The translations under genes and the position numbers were made by a program. This document shows positions 1 through 27,382 of a DNA stretch of 64,000 nt, one piece after another. The DNA lies in the NCBI RefSeq assembly GCF_002952215.1, contig NZ_CP022600.1, positions 1,364,001-1,428,000 on the forward strand, read 5' to 3'. Numbering within the stretch: position 1 is the stretch's first letter; the number at the start of each line of letters is the position of its first letter. The notes under the pieces were generated by a model. The model searched no databases. It was not told the DNA's origin and saw nothing but the letters and a program-made list of their open reading frames with translations. Source of the DNA: Porphyrobacter sp. HT-58-2. Lineage in GTDB: Bacteria; Pseudomonadota; Alphaproteobacteria; Sphingomonadales; Sphingomonadaceae.

Positions 1-924
1 GATGCCGGCGTGGTCGACTTCTCCAATCCCGCCGCTGCCGATTGGTTCGCGGAAGAAGTGATCGGCAAGCGGATGCTCGATTTCGGCCTTGACGGGTGGA
101 TGGCCGATTTTGGTGAGTATCTCCCCACCGACCTGCGCCTCCACGATGGCGATCCGATGCAGGAGCATAACCGCTGGCCCGTCCGCTGGGCCGAAGTCAA
201 CGCCCGTGCGGTCGCCTCAAGGGGGCGGACAGGCGATGTGCTGTGGTTCATGCGCGCAGGCCACACCGGGGTGCAGGCCCATTGCCCCTTGCTGTGGGCG
301 GGCGACCAGTCGGTGGATTTCAGCCGCCATGACGGGATCGGGACGGTGATCACCGCCGCGCTGTCATCGGGGCTGGTCGGCAATGCCTTCAGCCATTCGG
401 ATGTCGGCGGCTACACCAGTCTGTTCGGCAATGTGCGGACCGAGGAGCTGATCCTGAGGTGGTACGAACTCGGCGCCTTCAGCCCGGTGTTCCGCACGCA
501 TGAGGGCAACCGGCCGGACGACAATCTCCAGATCGACTCCTCGCCCGAACTGATCGCAGGTTTCGTGCGCTGGAGCCGTGTTCACGAGAGCCTCGCGCCC
601 TATGTGCGCCACCTCGTCGCCGAGGCGCGAGATGCCGGCCTGCCCGCCCAGCGTGCGCTGTTCCTCCACTATCCGCAAGATCGCGAGACCTTCACGATTC
701 AGGATCAGTTCCTCTATGGCGCAGACCTGATGGTGGCACCGGTGATCGAGGCGGGGGCGGTGATGCGCAAGGTCTATCTTCCGGAAGGGGCATGGCGGCA
801 TGTGTGGAGCGGGCAGGACTTCGCGTCCGGCTGGCATAACGTGCCTGCACCCATTGGTGAGCCGCCGGTTTTCTATCGTCCTGACAGCGCCTTTGCCGAC
901 CTGTTCGCCGGAGTAGCCGCATGA
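1..924 (+). CDS. GH31 family glycosidase, sulfoquinovosidase (YihQ/SmoI)-like, 5' end outside window
   Basis: The gene is open from the first base, so its N-terminal half lies outside the window; about 307 codons are visible. The visible part holds the GH31 catalytic core: the nucleophile Asp in WMADFGEY and the acid/base Asp in WAGDQ. The order and wording of these motifs, followed by HSDVGGYT and RTHEGNRP, resemble E. coli YihQ (sulfoquinovosidase) more than ordinary alpha-glucosidases, which usually have GGF where this protein has GGY. In YihQ the Tyr at this point helps bind the sulfonate; this is from memory. The sulfonate-binding Arg/Trp pair would lie upstream of the window. The stop overlaps the start of the LacI gene (ATGA), so the two are translationally coupled. 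GH31 membership is firm. The sulfoquinovose specificity is inferred from motif wording and from the SsuD-type monooxygenase and reductase downstream. Confidence 0.85.
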   Translation, partial: DAGVVDFSNPAAADWFAEEVIGKRMLDFGLDGWMADFGEYLPTDLRLHDGDPMQEHNRWPVRWAEVNARAVASRGRTGDVLWFMRAGHTGVQAHCPLLWAGDQSVDFSRHDGIGTVITAALSSGLVGNAFSHSDVGGYTSLFGNVRTEELILRWYELGAFSPVFRTHEGNRPDDNLQIDSSPELIAGFVRWSRVHESLAPYVRHLVAEARDAGLPAQRALFLHYPQDRETFTIQDQFLYGADLMVAPVIEAGAVMRKVYLPEGAWRHVWSGQDFASGWHNVPAPIGEPPVFYRPDSAFADLFAGVAA

Positions 925-1925
925 GCCGCGCCAACATCAAGGATGTCGCCGCCCGCGCAGGCGTCGCGGTCAAGACGGTCAGCCGCGTGCTCAACGGCCA
1001 CCCCTATGTCAGCGCCGAGTTGAAGGCGCGGGTCGAACAGGCGATGGCCGAGCTCGACTATCGGCCGAGCGTTGCCGCACGCATCCTGTCGGGTGCGAAA
1101 TCGGGGCAGATCGCGCTGATCTACGACAATCACAGCCCCTATTACATGTTCCAGATCCAGAAGGGCTGCTGGGACGTGTGCCACGAGAACGGCATCCGCT
1201 TGTTGGCGCAACCCGTCGACGTCGCCGACCCGCGCGTCGGGGAGCAGGTGCGCGGCCTTGTTAGCGAGACCCATGTCGACGGCATCATCCTGTCCTCGCC
1301 CGTCACCGACTGCGATCCGGTGCTGAGGGCGCTTGAGGGGATGGATGTGCCGTTCGTGCGGATCTCGCCGGGGACCAACCACGCGCTCACCTCCAGCGTG
1401 TTCATGGACGACGCGCAGGCCGCCGACGACATGACGACGCACCTCATCAATGCAGGCCACCGCCGGATCGGGTTCATCAAGGGCCATGCGAACCACATGG
1501 CCTCCGATGACCGGCTGTTCGGCTACCGCCGCGCGCTTGACCGTGTCGGCATCCCGTTCGAGCCGGGGCTGGTGGTCGATGGCGAATTCGACTTCGATTC
1601 CGGCGTGGCGGGCGCGCGGGCGCTGCTCGATCAACCCGATCGCCCGACCGCGATCTTCGCGTCGAATGACGACATGGCCGCCGGCGTGCTCGCTGTGGCG
1701 CATGACCGGGGGATCAACGTGCCTGCCGAGCTTTCGGTCGCGGGCTTCGACGATACCACGCTGGCGCGCACCGTCTGGCCGCCGCTCACCACCATTCGCC
1801 AGCCGATGGCCGAGCTTGCCCGGACGGCAACCCAGATCCTGATCGCAGGCGGGGACATCACCCACAAGCGCCTGCCCCATGACCTTGTCGAGCGCGCCTC
1901 GGTCGCTCCACCCAAGAGGAACTGA
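921..1925 (+). CDS. LacI family transcriptional regulator
   Basis: A 334-residue LacI/GalR repressor. The N-terminal helix-turn-helix (residues about 5-25, IKDVAARAGVAVKTVSRVLNG) is followed by a periplasmic-binding-protein-like ligand domain ending in the usual GFDDTTLAR and PPLTTIRQP motifs. It starts inside the stop codon of the GH31 gene (ATGA overlap) and is followed two bases after its stop by the aldo/keto reductase, so it sits within the operon it probably controls. The inducer is not visible from sequence; by context it is a sugar or sulfosugar released by the GH31 enzyme. The operator would be upstream of the operon, outside the window. Confidence 0.92.
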   Translation: MSRANIKDVAARAGVAVKTVSRVLNGHPYVSAELKARVEQAMAELDYRPSVAARILSGAKSGQIALIYDNHSPYYMFQIQKGCWDVCHENGIRLLAQPVDVADPRVGEQVRGLVSETHVDGIILSSPVTDCDPVLRALEGMDVPFVRISPGTNHALTSSVFMDDAQAADDMTTHLINAGHRRIGFIKGHANHMASDDRLFGYRRALDRVGIPFEPGLVVDGEFDFDSGVAGARALLDQPDRPTAIFASNDDMAAGVLAVAHDRGINVPAELSVAGFDDTTLARTVWPPLTTIRQPMAELARTATQILIAGGDITHKRLPHDLVERASVAPPKRN

Positions 1926-1927
1926 CA

Positions 1928-2842
1928 ATGAGTGAACTGCCCCTGCCGCCTGCAACCCGTACGCTCGGGAGCAGCGGGATAGACGTCTCCCCCATCGCCT
2001 GGGGCATGTGGCGGCTGGCCGAGGATGGCCGCACCGCTGCCGACGCGGCCAGGCTGGTGCACGCGGCGCTGGAAGCGGGGATCACCTTCCTCGACACGGC
2101 CGATATCTACGGCTTCGACGGTAATGGCGGCTTTGGCGATGCCGAGGTGCTGCTGGGCGAGGTGCTGGCGACCCAGCCGCGCCTGCGCGATCAGATGGTG
2201 CTGGCGACCAAGGGCGGTATCCTGCCGCCGCTGCCTTACGACCAGAGCGCGGCCTATCTTAACAAGGCCATCGAGGATTCCTTGCGCCGCCTGAAGGTCG
2301 ACAGTGTCGACCTGTGGCAGATCCACCGTCCCGATATCCTCGCTCACCCGCAGGAGGTGGCGAGGGTGCTCGATGATGCGGTGGCGAGCGGCAAGATCAG
2401 GGCGCTGGGGGTGTCGAATTTCACGCAGGCCCAGATTGCCGCGCTCCAGCATTTCCTTGGCAACAAGCTGGTCAGCACGCAGCCGGAAATCAGCCCCTTG
2501 CGGATCGACTGCTTCGAGAACGGCGAACTGGATCAGGCGATGATGCTGGGGCTGACCCCGCTGGCGTGGTCGCCACTGGGAGGCGGGCGTCTGGCCGCGC
2601 CGGAAACGCCGCGCAACAAGGCGGTGGCGGCGGCGCTCGATGTGGTGGCCGAGGCGCAAGGCGTGTCGCGCACGGTCGCGGCCTATAGCTGGCTCATGGC
2701 GCATCCGGCGGGGATCATTCCGATCATCGGCTCGCAGAACGCCGCCCGCATCGCGGAAGGGGCGCAGGCGCTCAAGGTCCGCTGGACGCGCACCGATTGG
2801 TACGCCGTGCTGGTCGCGGCGCGGGGCGTGCCGCTGCCCTGA
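1928..2842 (+). CDS. Aldo/keto reductase, candidate 6-dehydroglucose reductase (SmoB-like)
   Basis: A 304-residue aldo/keto reductase of the YdhF-like type. The catalytic tetrad is visible as Asp56 and Tyr61 (FLDTADIYG), Lys95 (ATKGG) and His133 (IHRPD). The GVSNF, SPLGGG and IIPIIGSQ motifs of the barrel and NADP-binding end are present. Start ATG has the good Shine-Dalgarno AAGAGGA upstream. It lies between a LacI regulator and an SsuD-type monooxygenase. In the sulfo-SMO pathway of Agrobacterium an enzyme of this family (SmoB) reduces 6-dehydroglucose, the product of sulfoquinovose monooxygenase, to glucose. That assignment here is an inference from gene order and family. A general sugar or carbonyl reductase remains possible. 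Confidence 0.88.
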   Translation: MSELPLPPATRTLGSSGIDVSPIAWGMWRLAEDGRTAADAARLVHAALEAGITFLDTADIYGFDGNGGFGDAEVLLGEVLATQPRLRDQMVLATKGGILPPLPYDQSAAYLNKAIEDSLRRLKVDSVDLWQIHRPDILAHPQEVARVLDDAVASGKIRALGVSNFTQAQIAALQHFLGNKLVSTQPEISPLRIDCFENGELDQAMMLGLTPLAWSPLGGGRLAAPETPRNKAVAAALDVVAEAQGVSRTVAAYSWLMAHPAGIIPIIGSQNAARIAEGAQALKVRWTRTDWYAVLVAARGVPLP

Positions 2843-2886
2843 TTGGCCCCACGAGAACACAAGATTTGGACGAGGAACCTGAGGAA

Positions 2887-3987
2887 ATGAGCCAGCCCCC
2901 CCTTGCGCAACAATGCGAAATCGCGTGGTTTTCCGCGCTGTGTGACGACGATTACGAATTCCTCGGCGTCCCCGATCCCTATCTGCAATCGAGCTGGGAG
3001 CATTGCCGCAACCTCGTGCTGCGCGCCGAGGAAGGCGGGTTCGACAACATCCTCCTGCCCTCGGGCTACCAGCTTGGGGTCGACACCACGATCTTCGCTG
3101 CCGCCGTCGCGACGCAGGTCAAGCGCATCAAGCTGCTGTGGGCGACCCGCATGGGCGAGGACTGGCCGCCGCAACTGGCGCGCCGGATCGCGACGCTCGA
3201 CCGCATCCTCGGCCCGAATGCGGCCGGCACCGGGGGCAGGCTCAACGTCAACATCATCTCCTCGGACATGCCGGGCGAAAAGATCGAGAGCGGCCCGCGC
3301 TACCGCCGCGGCACCGAGATCATGAAGATCGTTCGCACGTTGCTGAACGGCGAACACCTCGATTTCGATGGCGAGTTCTACAAGCTCAAACTCGATCCGC
3401 CGCGGATCACCACCCTCAGTGGCAAGTGTCCGCCGTTCTATTTCGGCGGCCTCAGCCACGAAGCGCGCGAATGTGCGGCTGAGGCGGCGGACGTCTACCT
3501 GATGTGGCCCGACATGATGGACAAGGTGCGCGAGAACATCGTCGACCTCAAGGCCCGCGCCGCCAGTTACGGGCGCACGCTCAAGTTCGGCTACCGCGTC
3601 CACGTGATCGTGCGCGAGACCGAGGACGAGGCGCGCCACTACGCCGACCGCCTGCTGTCGAAGCTGGACGACGAGGCGGGCCGCGCGATCCGCGAAAAGA
3701 GCCTCGACGCCAAGAACTACGGCGTCCAGCGCCAGCAGGAGCTGCGCGGCGCGGCCGATGGCGATGGCTTTGTCGAGGAGAACCTGTGGACCGGCATTGG
3801 CCGCGCGCGTTCTGGCTGCGGGGCGGCGATCGTCGGCACGCCCGACCAGGTGCTGGCGAAACTGCGCGCCTATCAGGCCGAGGGGATCGAGGCCTTCATC
3901 CTGTCGGGCTATCCGCACATGCAGGAGGCCGATCTGTTCGCGCGCCATGTGCTGCCGCATATCCAGCACGGCCCGCTGGAGATGTGA
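2887..3987 (+). CDS. FMNH2-dependent alkanesulfonate-type monooxygenase, candidate sulfoquinovose monooxygenase (SmoC-like)
   Basis: A 366-residue luciferase-like flavin monooxygenase of the SsuD branch. Shared features include the early LLPSGYQLG segment, YFGGLSHEA, the RVHVIVRET segment (E. coli SsuD has RLHVIVRET), the ENLWTGIG segment and the LSGYPH segment near the C-terminus. The in-frame region extends further upstream, but ATG 2887 is chosen because GAGGAA lies just before it and the protein then begins like its relatives. Such enzymes cleave C-S bonds of sulfonates with reduced FMN and O2, giving an aldehyde and sulfite, and need a separate flavin reductase, which is not seen in this window. 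With the GH31 enzyme and aldo/keto reductase upstream it fits SmoC. No terminator with a T-tract follows, only a long inverted repeat. Confidence 0.88.
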   Translation: MSQPPLAQQCEIAWFSALCDDDYEFLGVPDPYLQSSWEHCRNLVLRAEEGGFDNILLPSGYQLGVDTTIFAAAVATQVKRIKLLWATRMGEDWPPQLARRIATLDRILGPNAAGTGGRLNVNIISSDMPGEKIESGPRYRRGTEIMKIVRTLLNGEHLDFDGEFYKLKLDPPRITTLSGKCPPFYFGGLSHEARECAAEAADVYLMWPDMMDKVRENIVDLKARAASYGRTLKFGYRVHVIVRETEDEARHYADRLLSKLDDEAGRAIREKSLDAKNYGVQRQQELRGAADGDGFVEENLWTGIGRARSGCGAAIVGTPDQVLAKLRAYQAEGIEAFILSGYPHMQEADLFARHVLPHIQHGPLEM

Positions 3988-4355: not shown

Positions 4356-5552
4356 ATGAACCTCGAGTTCACCCCCGAAGAGCAGGCCTTCCGTGACGAA
4401 GTCCGCGCCTTCATCGCCGAGAATTATCCCAAGCATCTCGCCGATTTCGGCATGCGCGAAGACATGGAACGCGAGGACTTCCTCGCCTGGCACAAGGTGC
4501 TGGGCAAGAAGGGCTGGTCGGTTCCGGCATGGCCGGTCGAATATGGCGGCACCGGCTGGACCCCGACCCAGCGTTACATCTGGTCGGAAGAAAACGCCCG
4601 CATCAACGCCGTCATGCCGCTGCCTTTCGGCGTGTCGATGGTCGGCCCGGTGATCTACACCTTCGGCAATGCCGAACAGAAGGCCAAGCACCTGCCCGGC
4701 ATCGTCAGCGGCGACGTGTGGTGGTGCCAGGGCTATTCGGAACCGGGTGCAGGCTCCGACCTTGCCAGCCTCAAGACCACCGCCGTGCGTGACGGCGATC
4801 ACTACGTCATCAACGGCCAGAAGACCTGGACGACGCTTGCCCAGCACGCCGACTGGGGCTTCTTCCTGTGCCGCACCGATCCCACCGCCAAGGCGCAGGA
4901 AGGCATCAGCTTCATCCTCGTCGACATGAAGACGCCGGGCGTGGAAGTGAAGCCGATCAAGCTGCTCGATGGCGGCTACGAGGTCAACGAGACCTGGCTG
5001 ACCGACGTGCGCGTGCCGGTCGAGAACCTTGTCGGTCAGGAGAACAAGGGCTGGACCTATGCCAAGTTCCTGCTCGCCCACGAACGCAGCGGCATCGCGG
5101 GCGTGGCGCGCAGCAAGCGCGGCGTTGAAAAGTTGCGCGAAATCGCGACGCACGAGACGCTCGATGGCCAGCCGCTGATCAAGGATTTCGACTTCGCCAA
5201 GAAGGTGAGCCAGCTCGAAATCGATCTCGCCGCGCTGGAAATCACCGAGCTGCGCACGCTGGCGGGCGAACAGGCGGGCAAGGGGCCGGGGCCGGAAAGC
5301 TCGATCCTCAAGATCAAGGGTACCGAAATCCAGCAGCGCCTCACCGAACTGACGCTGGAAGCGGTCGGTACCTACTCTGCGCCTTACATGGGCGGGGTGT
5401 CGAACGACAACGGATCGAATGAACACCCGGTCGGCCCCGACTATGCCACCCACGCGGCGGCGACCTATTTCAACATGCGCAAGACCAGCATCTATGGCGG
5501 ATCGAACGAGATCCAGCGCAACATCATCACCAAGATGATCCTCGGTCTGTAA
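4356..5552 (+). CDS. Acyl-CoA dehydrogenase family protein (first of a pair)
   Basis: A 398-residue acyl-CoA dehydrogenase, an FAD enzyme that introduces the alpha-beta double bond into acyl-CoA thioesters. Typical segments are present: FTPEEQAFRDEVRAF at the N-terminus, the substrate/FAD segment CQGYSEPGAGSDLASL, and YGGSNEIQRNI at the C-terminus. In MCAD-type enzymes the catalytic Glu sits just before the QIQR-like segment (YEGTAQIQR). Here that position is Gly, so the base, if any, must be elsewhere. ATG 4356 is preferred over an earlier in-frame ATG (4338) because GGAGA lies just before it. The second dehydrogenase follows 24 bases downstream, suggesting one transcript and perhaps one heteromeric enzyme. 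Substrate unknown. Confidence 0.9.
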   Translation: MNLEFTPEEQAFRDEVRAFIAENYPKHLADFGMREDMEREDFLAWHKVLGKKGWSVPAWPVEYGGTGWTPTQRYIWSEENARINAVMPLPFGVSMVGPVIYTFGNAEQKAKHLPGIVSGDVWWCQGYSEPGAGSDLASLKTTAVRDGDHYVINGQKTWTTLAQHADWGFFLCRTDPTAKAQEGISFILVDMKTPGVEVKPIKLLDGGYEVNETWLTDVRVPVENLVGQENKGWTYAKFLLAHERSGIAGVARSKRGVEKLREIATHETLDGQPLIKDFDFAKKVSQLEIDLAALEITELRTLAGEQAGKGPGPESSILKIKGTEIQQRLTELTLEAVGTYSAPYMGGVSNDNGSNEHPVGPDYATHAAATYFNMRKTSIYGGSNEIQRNIITKMILGL

Positions 5553-5576
5553 GGCCTGAAGGACGGGAGAGAATTC

Positions 5577-6707
5577 GTGGATTTCAACTTCACCGAAGAA
5601 CAGGGCATGGTGCGCGACGGCCTCTCGCGGCTGGTGCGTGAGCAATACGGCTTCGAGGAGCGTCGCAAGGCCATCGCCAGTGCCGAGGGCTGGCGGCCGG
5701 AAATCTGGGCGCAGCTGGCCGAATTGGGCATTCTCGGGATGCCGTTCTCCGAGGCCGACGGCGGCTTCGGCGGCGGCGCGGTCGATGCCATGGTGATCAT
5801 GGAGGAATTCGGAAAAGGCCTTGTTGTTGAACCCTTTATCCCCACAGTGGTGTGCGCTGGCGGGTTCCTGAAGCACGCCGGAACGGCGGCGCAGAAGGAA
5901 GAGCATATCGGCGCGATCGTTTCGGGGAGCGCGGTCTTCGCCTTCGCCTATGCCGAGCCGCGCGGGCGCTATGACTATGCCGATCTTGAGACCACCGCGA
6001 AGAAGGACGGGGCGGGCTATGTCCTCAACGGCCACAAGGCGGTCGTCATCGGCGCGCCCTGGGCGAGCCACCTCGTCGTCACCGCCCGCACCGGCGGCGA
6101 GCGGCGGGATCGCTCGGGCGTCTCGGTGTTCGTGCTTGCCAAAGACACGCCCGGCGTGACCACCCGCGATTATGTGACGGTCGATGGCCGCCGCGCATCG
6201 GAAGTCTATTTCGAGAACGTGTCGGTCGGTGCCGAGGCGCTGATCGGGGCCGAGGGCGAAGGGCTGGCGCTGATCGAGACCGTCACCGACGAAGCCATCG
6301 CCGCCCTGTGTGCCGAAGCCTGCGGGGCGATGAAGGTCGCCCATGCCATGACGGTGGAATACAGCCGCCAGCGCAAGCAGTTTGGCGTGCCGATCGGCAG
6401 CTTTCAGGTCCTACAGCACCGCATGGTCGACATGTACACTGCCTACGAACAGGCGGTGTCGCTGACCTATCTGGCAACCCTGCGCCTCGGCTCGGACGAG
6501 CGCACCCGCAAGCTGGCTGTGAGCGCCGCCAAGGTCGGCGTGGGCCAGGCGGCGCGGCTGATCGGGCAGGAAGCGGTGCAGATCCACGGCGGCAACGGCG
6601 TGACCGACGAATATGCCATCGGCCATTATTTCAAGCGGTTGACGATCTTCGACAGCGAATTCGGCAATGTCGATCACCATCTGAAGCGCCACGTCGCGCT
6701 GAGCTGA
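5577..6707 (+). CDS. Acyl-CoA dehydrogenase family protein (second of a pair)
   Basis: A 376-residue acyl-CoA dehydrogenase starting at GTG with GGGAGA upstream; it begins MDFNFTEEQ as family members do. The C-terminal part has QIHGGNGVTDEYAIGHYFKR, again with Gly-Gly where many family members have the catalytic Glu. The middle segment reads AYAEPRGRYD where the first enzyme has the usual YSEPGAGSD, so the flavin/substrate-binding segment is also atypical. Such uneven pairs are known from steroid side-chain degradation in actinobacteria, where two unlike subunits make an alpha2-beta2 enzyme with one active site per pair. That this pair does the same is an inference. A strong terminator follows at 6732. 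Confidence 0.88.
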   Translation: MDFNFTEEQGMVRDGLSRLVREQYGFEERRKAIASAEGWRPEIWAQLAELGILGMPFSEADGGFGGGAVDAMVIMEEFGKGLVVEPFIPTVVCAGGFLKHAGTAAQKEEHIGAIVSGSAVFAFAYAEPRGRYDYADLETTAKKDGAGYVLNGHKAVVIGAPWASHLVVTARTGGERRDRSGVSVFVLAKDTPGVTTRDYVTVDGRRASEVYFENVSVGAEALIGAEGEGLALIETVTDEAIAALCAEACGAMKVAHAMTVEYSRQRKQFGVPIGSFQVLQHRMVDMYTAYEQAVSLTYLATLRLGSDERTRKLAVSAAKVGVGQAARLIGQEAVQIHGGNGVTDEYAIGHYFKRLTIFDSEFGNVDHHLKRHVALS

Positions 6708-26396: not shown

Positions 26397-27382
26397 GCGT
26401 GTTCCGAGGCAAAGGCAGCGGCCGCGCCGAACAGGCCCGGCTGGGGGTGGACAATGAGCTTGACCGGGATCGCGTTCATCAGGCTTTCGAACCGTCCCTT
26501 GGCCTTGAACCGCGACCCGAAGCCCGACGAGAGCAGCGTCTCGCGGATACGGTAGCCGAGGCCGCCTGCGATCACGACGCCGGCAAAGCCGCCCTGCGCC
26601 AGCGCGAGATCGCCCGCAACCGAACCCAGTGACAGGCAGAACCGGTCAACGGCGGCGGCGGCCAGCGAGTCCTCGCCGCTGGTGCCGAGGCCCCAGATGG
26701 TGATGGCATCCAGCTCCGGCACGCTGCGCCCTTCCAGGGCGGCGAGGGCTTCGTAGATGTCGACAATGGCGGGGCCTGCCACCACGCGCTCGACCGAGAC
26801 GCGGATATGCCTTTGGCGCAGGCGGGCGAGGATCGCATCCTCGATGGAGTCGAGCGGGGCAAAGTCGATATGCCCGCCCTCGGTCGCCTGCACCCGGTAA
26901 TCGCCACTCGCGGAGCGATAGAGATGTGCCACGCCAAGCCCGGTGCCTGGTCCGATCACGCTGATTGTGCCCTCACGGCCGAGCGGCTGGTCGGGGCCGG
27001 CAAGGTGCAGGAACTGGCTGTCGTCCGCCCGCGCCACGGCATGGGCCACGGCGGCGAAGTCATTGACGAGGGTGAAGCGTTCGACCCCAAGCTTTTCATT
27101 GATGAGCGCGGGGCGGATGATCCACGGATTGTTGGTGAAACGGATCACCGGATTGGGGTTGCCGGGGCTGCCGACCGGTCCTGCAATCGCCATGCTGACC
27201 GCCGCAGGCAGCGTGCCGCCCTTGCGGGTGCGGAAGGCTTCCCATGCGGTCTGGAAGCTGGCGTGATCGGCAGTGTGGAGCGTTTCGGGTTCGTCGAGAC
27301 TGATCGCGCCATCGCCGCCGATGCTGGCAATGGCGAAGCGGGCATGGGTCCCGCCGATATCGACCACCACAACGTCCTGCAT
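26393..27382 (-). CDS. glk: Glucokinase
   Basis: A 329-residue glucokinase of the Glk group. Segments: phosphate loop DIGGTHARFA, catalytic Asp in LVNDFAA, GPGTGLG, and EGGHIDFAP, which is diagnostic for bacterial Glk. ATG 27382 follows GGGGGAGAGAG; a start 39 bases upstream adds unrelated residues. It phosphorylates glucose coming from GluP, from sucrose and possibly from sulfoquinovose, feeding Zwf. Its stop overlaps the start of the PEP-carboxylase-like gene, so the two are co-translated. About 100 bases separate it from the S46 peptidase gene; that gap holds an 8-base stem (27428-27435 with 27447-27454) without a T-tract. Confidence 0.95.
   Translation of the reverse strand: MQDVVVVDIGGTHARFAIASIGGDGAISLDEPETLHTADHASFQTAWEAFRTRKGGTLPAAVSMAIAGPVGSPGNPNPVIRFTNNPWIIRPALINEKLGVERFTLVNDFAAVAHAVARADDSQFLHLAGPDQPLGREGTISVIGPGTGLGVAHLYRSASGDYRVQATEGGHIDFAPLDSIEDAILARLRQRHIRVSVERVVAGPAIVDIYEALAALEGRSVPELDAITIWGLGTSGEDSLAAAAVDRFCLSLGSVAGDLALAQGGFAGVVIAGGLGYRIRETLLSSGFGSRFKAKGRFESLMNAIPVKLIVHPQPGLFGAAAAFASEHA

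Follow-up and report, generated by a model that had tools for sequence, protein, structure and literature searches.

The window analyzed here, a 64,000-base stretch of Porphyrobacter sp. HT-58-2 (within one contig of 3.28 Mb, C1, at bases 1364001-1428000, so that the upstream DNA could also be read), opens with a four-gene operon that faces a divergent operon just upstream. Judged from gene content and residues, the two together are highly likely to form a locus for the utilization of sulfoquinovosyl-glycerol (SQGro) of the sulfoquinovose monooxygenase kind (sulfo-SMO, or sulfo-ASMO), in which a RibB-like protein no longer acts as a 3,4-dihydroxy-2-butanone 4-phosphate (DHBP) synthase. The sulfo-SMO assignment is secure at the sequence level and ordinary for sphingomonads, for which the core is already published, whereas the RibB-like protein looks like a new part. 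Few organic sulfur compounds are more abundant than sulfoquinovose (PMC12890257), and the locus suggests how this sphingomonad group, with a flavin supply of its own, could turn SQGro into glucose, glycerol and sulfate. The core genes are four coupled plus-strand open reading frames (ORFs) of the same direction, comprising a glycoside hydrolase of family 31 (GH31, its C-terminal part in the window), a LacI regulator, an aldo/keto reductase (AKR) and a luciferase-like monooxygenase:

Window 1..924, + strand: C-terminal part of the predicted GH31 sulfoquinovosidase (SQase), with 782 bits to 5ohy, K/E/R/W/Y and both Asp
C1:1362936-1364924, + strand: the whole GH31 gene, 662 aa, of which only the last 924 bases lie inside the window
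Window 921..1925, + strand: LacI-family regulator, by ORF and Pfam match
Window 1928..2842, + strand: AKR of the SmoB/SquF type, putative 6-dehydroglucose reductase, with 198/197 bits to 7bbz/7bby and the Aldo_ket_red family
Window 2887..3987, + strand: predicted SmoC/SquD-type FMNH2-dependent sulfoquinovose monooxygenase, 366 aa, by Bac_luciferase, PDB matches and tree

The coupled arrangement with a GGYT motif and an Asp pair in GH31, as described in a first-pass annotation of the window, is seen in the ORFs and in the Pfam matches (GH31, PF01055; LacI; Aldo_ket_red; Bac_luciferase), and the reading of this set as a sulfo-SMO operon is upheld by the GH31 binding residues and by the placement of the monooxygenase on the SmoC side of its tree. 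The GH31 and LacI genes overlap by 4 bp, and the monooxygenase starts with the ATG at 2887, preceded by GAGGAA. The SmoB and SmoC homologues are neighboring genes (1928-3987), the proximity that PMC13372026 adopts as its rule.

The start of the GH31 gene, at C1:1362936, is 1,065 bases ahead of window base 1. In the PDB comparison the GH31 product scores 782 bits to 5ohy, 577 to YihQ (5aed) and 157 to the best other GH31 chain. We take 5ohy and 5ohs to be structures of the Agrobacterium sulfoquinovosidase (AtSQase), in which the residues K-E-R-W-Y presumably bind the substrate and the Asp pair is presumably catalytic. The upstream N-terminal half, which the annotation had proposed to read for sulfonate-binding residues, contributes to a complete set: K247, E272, R285, W288 and Y493 align with 5ohy chain positions 245, 270, 283, 286 and 491, and the Asp pair, D391 and D457, is present. 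All seven residues are identical in 78/78 homologues aligned over 550 columns or more (of these, 71 come from the 80 named loci and 7 from other fetched loci, a set in which the same genome may occur under two names).

The monooxygenase scores 365 bits to 7olf and 364 to 7oh2, which we take to be SmoC structures, against 202 to MsuD and 189 to SsuD. In a 34-sequence tree (30 picked from 100 loci with a match, plus four PDB segments), the split between the SmoC type and SsuD/MsuD is supported at 100/100, and the window protein groups with the SmoC type, as a comparison suggested by the annotation was meant to establish. The protein is called SmoC below. An earlier 35-sequence tree including SfnG, whose branch is very long, separated the SsuD/MsuD group at 99/100; a relative from Emticicia (L129) has a long branch and an uncertain placement. 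The SsuD model TIGR03565 gives 244 bits against a cut-off of 518.2, and in the tree the protein lies outside the SsuD clade. The named best matches are 96-98% identical and come mostly from Erythrobacter/Porphyrobacter records. The AKR scores 198 bits to 7bbz and 197 to 7bby, presumably SmoB structures, and 146 to the next other protein, 4r9o.

The arrangement was compared across the best 80 of 160 SmoC relatives found in one scan of named genomes. Of these, 72 loci include 6 kb or more of DNA upstream of SmoC; in them, at identity thresholds of 60, 36, 50 and 55%, the AKR and the TonB-dependent receptor occur in 72/72, the SQase in 71/72 and LacI in 70/72. The order TonB(-), SQase-LacI-AKR-SmoC(+) is kept in 69 of the 72, so the arrangement is not a matter of chance. 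In the 68 loci that extend 4.5 kb or more beyond SmoC, GlpD (23/68), an FMN reductase (17/68), the RibB-like gene (17/68), SorA (5/68) and SorB (5/68) lie 3′ of SmoC. From genus to genus the modules thus change sides relative to the core, an argument for counting them as part of the pathway. On plasmid pLA3 of Novosphingobium pentaromativorans, TonB, GH31, LacI, AKR, SmoC, GlpD and GlpK follow one another in a single row. In 25 Erythrobacter-type genomes drawn from the 80, the RibB-like gene is found in all and SorA in 23, lying by coordinates within 100 bases of the RibB-like gene in 20. SmoC-type matches (E <= 1e-75) occur in 50/199 genomes of the family and 21/385 of the class.

The divergent minus-strand operon has eight genes, all outside the window; it begins 1.2 kb upstream of it, and its first start codon and that of GH31 are 166 bases apart. 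Beginning with the exporter gene, adjacent genes share 4 to about 16 bases. Its genes, and a glucokinase gene elsewhere in the window, are as follows:

C1:1360454-1362769, - strand: TonB-dependent receptor, first gene of the operon
C1:1359071-1360345, - strand: major facilitator superfamily (MFS) transporter; PF07690 above cut-off, no NCBIfam model above cut-off
C1:1357894-1358985, - strand: YeiH/PF03601-type putative exporter; TIGR00698 below its cut-off
C1:1356407-1357909, - strand: GlpD; 744.5 bits, cut-off 352
C1:1355838-1356410, - strand: FMN reductase, PF03358 FMN_red; PDB match weak
C1:1355227-1355841, - strand: RibB-like protein, PF00926, 207 bits
C1:1354004-1355230, - strand: SorA-like protein; NCBIfam SorA equivalog 397.9 bits, cut-off 600
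C1:1353660-1354007, - strand: SorB candidate, a small CxxCH lipoprotein-like protein; no Pfam match
Window 26408..27367, - strand: glucokinase, which could take up the glucose product; inside the window and outside the sulfoquinovose locus

The annotation had suspected uptake by TonB and MFS proteins upstream, and both are encoded in this operon. It had also remarked that an ATP-binding cassette (ABC) importer and a flavin reductase were absent from the part it could see: no ABC importer for SQGro or sulfonates is among the genes of the two operons, and the reductase turns out to lie outside the window, at C1:1355838-1356410. As anticipated, the layout is a variant one, in the gene cargo of the divergent operon.

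From gene content, residues, tree position and synteny, we infer fluxes, regulation, cell location and a role for the RibB-like protein as follows. SQGro would enter through the TonB receptor and the MFS permease and be split by a cytoplasmic GH31 into sulfoquinovose and glycerol. SmoC, supplied with FMNH2 by the PF03358 reductase, which would thus serve it, would cut the C-S bond to give 6-dehydroglucose and sulfite, and the AKR would reduce 6-dehydroglucose to glucose. Glycerol could be used by GlpD together with GlpK, encoded elsewhere in the genome, and glucose by glucokinase, while sulfite may be oxidized by SorA/SorB, exported by the YeiH protein, or both. LacI would repress both divergent operons. 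The RibB-like protein, very probably no longer a DHBP synthase, probably helps to handle flavin or has a ligand of the phosphate or sulfonate kind.

The RibB-like protein is named DHBP synthase in those listed public records that name it. In the alignment with solved DHBP synthases, their loop RENEGD reads RGGDID in this protein, with Gly at the site of the metal-binding Glu, and Ala occupies the site of the metal-binding His (GHTEA). The first loop Glu is replaced across 19 loci (Gly 11, Arg 6, Asp 2) and in all but one of 17 family matches (Gly 13, Arg 3, Glu 1, the last in G455), and is Gly in 120/120 database matches, a set made up of the best 120 of 5148 and thus of close relatives only. 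The GHTEA His is Ala or Thr in our own sequence, in 19/19 loci and in 17/17 family matches, and Ala in 118/120 database matches, the other 2 being unread by the pattern; GHTEA itself occurs in 0/120. The Glu of the CE pair, the third conserved Glu, is Ser or Ala in every RibB-like sequence; in Escherichia coli it is E174. The relative G455 (L148 / L118) has the loop ALREGDLD, which keeps the metal-binding Glu, while its His and third Glu are gone, perhaps an intermediate state. The loop Arg, the TGISAADRA segment and PGHVFPL are retained. In the V. cholerae DHBP synthase, matched through our own alignment and a one-residue numbering shift, Glu-39 and His-154 bind the metals, Glu-39 mutants are inactive and the loop Arg contacts phosphate (PMC5228156). 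The genome carries elsewhere a housekeeping RibBA that is intact at these sites. Twelve canonical control loci, namely eleven of 67 RibBA-like matches in the class and our own RibBA, show CE in 12/12, GHTE in 11/12, the canonical loop pattern in 8/12 and the new loop in 0/12.

The ratio of nonsynonymous to synonymous substitution rates (dN/dS) of the RibB-like gene is 0.07-0.09 against two close orthologues and 0.23-0.32 against two distant ones, similar to that of the neighboring FMN reductase gene (0.09; 0.24-0.29), so that by its sequence the protein is under purifying selection. An AlphaFold2 model from 29 sequences (mean predicted local distance difference test score, pLDDT, 91.6) superposes on solved DHBP synthases with a template modeling (TM) score of about 0.9, the fold being kept. 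The protein has thus been maintained and keeps the old fold, very probably with loss of the old chemistry.

RibB-like matches at E <= 1e-56, a family cut-off that would miss more distant RibB-like proteins, occur in 18/199 family genomes, and the 17 sequences other than our own all have the new loop. All 18 genomes are among the 50 with SmoC (Fisher p = 1e-12, uncorrected for kinship); by coordinates an FMN reductase match lies within 100 bases of the RibB-like gene in 18/18, and in one genome (G496) SmoC is on another contig. Among 20 fetched stretches, the 14 with an FMN reductase relative and no SmoC match contain 0 RibB-like matches; by Pfam, no sulfonate genes were found among 10 neighbor proteins from three of these 14. 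In the class, 68/385 genomes match at E <= 1e-50, and the sole close match is our own: the other 67 are 47-56% identical, in open frames of at least 366 aa, as expected for RibBA. On a Methylocystis plasmid (L131, 2501-6074), ssuD is followed by an acyl-CoA dehydrogenase gene and an annotated GTP cyclohydrolase II gene (ribA), another riboflavin-type gene near a sulfonate monooxygenase. Among the papers listed first on sulfoquinovose with TonB and sulfite dehydrogenase, on sulfoquinovose with riboflavin and RibB, and on DHBP synthase with alkanesulfonate monooxygenase, in a collection without most subscription journals, no RibB-like protein in such loci was found. The protein is probably a flavin- or phosphate-binding accessory. 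Tentatively, and as an idea we entertain rather than favor, sphingomonad sulfoquinovose loci may have taken over a DHBP synthase devoid of catalysis to work specifically with the flavin reductase and monooxygenase. It might, for example, bind FMN(H2) by its ribityl-phosphate and store it or pass it on, or serve as a sensor for a ligand of the phosphate or sulfonate kind. The family is misannotated as a riboflavin enzyme, and as a pseudoenzyme it is the part worth an experiment. With such a natural accessory, the handling of reduced flavin in two-component monooxygenases could be put to the test.

Several observations weigh against the proposed locus. SmoC is only about half identical to solved SmoC-type sequences; the plasmid relatives nearest to these are L087 and L128, to which the window SmoC is 50-52% identical. 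PDB entry names are generic ('Alkanesulfonate monooxygenase', 'Aryl-alcohol dehydrogenase'), and both the enzyme identities of these entries and the GH31 binding-residue set are, as said, assumed here. GlpD, the FMN reductase and SorA are not near SmoC, within reach, in many of the 68 loci. SorA was not found in 2/25 Erythrobacter-type genomes and lies on another contig in 3/25; the SorA-like score of 397.9 bits stands against a cut-off of 600, SorA being the best of three models matched. No palindromic LacI operator is shared among 69 TonB/SQase intergenic stretches, including our own. As for the linkage of the RibB-like gene, 32 SmoC genomes have no RibB-like match, so the pathway does not need this protein, and in one stretch (L124) SmoC and a relative of the FMN reductase occur with no RibB-like match.

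Three other readings were considered. A plain alpha-glucosidase operon, whose SsuD-type enzyme would scavenge sulfur from alkanesulfonates, would suit the maltodextrin-type GH77 gene further upstream and the Trp, Arg, His, Arg and Tyr that SsuD and SmoC share at the positions compared; it is scarcely credible given that GH31 scores 782 bits to a sulfoquinovosidase against 157 to the best other GH31 and keeps the five binding residues, that the monooxygenase lies outside the SsuD clade and has GYQLGVD at the position of GRSCED in E. coli SsuD, and that the two operons contain no sulfonate ABC importer, and it was rejected on these grounds. It is unlikely, if less so, that the same chemistry serves mainly another 6-sulfosugar or a sulfoquinovose derivative: the sphingomonad SmoC clade does branch off by itself, at about half identity to the solved type, and in some relatives, Sphingobium L126 (69%) among them, no GH31 is annotated in the neighborhood of SmoC, but GH31 accompanies SmoC in 71/72 loci of the window's clade with the residue set complete in 78/78, and the characterized N. 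aromaticivorans enzymes are reported in reviews to act on sulfoquinovose (PMC9594981, PMC12890257).

A working DHBP synthase that raises riboflavin supply would account for the strong PF00926 match, the TM score of about 0.9, the name in public records and the metal-binding Glu retained in G455. It is nevertheless very improbable and was rejected: the sequences read have lost the metal-binding His and the third Glu, all except G455 lack the metal-binding Glu as well, an intact RibBA is present elsewhere in the genome, and in V. cholerae and M. jannaschii the enzyme is inactive once its metal-binding Glu is mutated (PMC5228156).

Some neighboring genes and relatives are recorded separately. Two acyl-CoA dehydrogenase genes lie directly downstream of the core (window 4356-6707, + strand) with no evident link to sulfoquinovose; the first recurs 3′ of SmoC, mainly in Erythrobacter-type loci. 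The GH77 4-alpha-glucanotransferase gene and a second TonB receptor gene, upstream of the locus at L002:2349-7527 (L002 being the upstream stretch, in which window position x is x + 18000), probably form a separate maltodextrin region. In Rhizobium sp. WSM4643 (L127), a SmoC relative (71%) stands beside LacI and a sugar ABC importer, and AKR and GH31 are not annotated within the 21 kb shown around it. In Novosphingobium EMRT-2 (L086) and Sphingobium yanoikuyae (L126), AKR-SmoC adjoins a phytanoyl-CoA dioxygenase-family gene, with no LacI in front.

Sulfo-ASMO/sulfo-SMO is described for two organisms, Agrobacterium and N. aromaticivorans (PMC9594981, PMC12890257), and Novosphingobium assimilates labelled sulfoquinovose, the pathway being predicted from related genomes (PMC13372026). 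Since the pathway is thus published in sphingomonads, its core is already known, and not novel in the way that the first-pass annotation had implied. The locus resembles that of N. aromaticivorans (SquD, SquF) in pairing a SquD-type monooxygenase with an AKR in a sphingomonad; it differs in its FMN reductase, which a review states to be missing from that cluster (PMC9594981), and in its RibB-like and SorA/SorB-like genes, the N. aromaticivorans cluster being taken from that review only. N. pentaromativorans has the same core operon and a SmoC 88% identical to ours. In the clusters of Ruegeria and Rhizobium SL42, a 'flavin reductase family protein' gene stands in place of the PF03358 reductase. 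The Agrobacterium smo cluster (SmoA-I), whose gene set is given in part by PMC9594981 and PMC13372026, shares with our locus the SQase, a SmoB-type AKR, a SmoC-type monooxygenase and a flavin reductase, whereas Agrobacterium has an SQGro ABC importer (PMC9594981) and our locus has TonB and MFS proteins, a PF03358 reductase, LacI inside the operon and a SmoC about half identical. With DHBP synthase RibB, the RibB-like protein shares the fold, the loop Arg and the TGISAADRA and PGHVFPL segments; it differs in lacking the metal-binding His, the third Glu and nearly always the metal-binding Glu, and in being a stand-alone gene confined, in the family sample, to genomes with SmoC.

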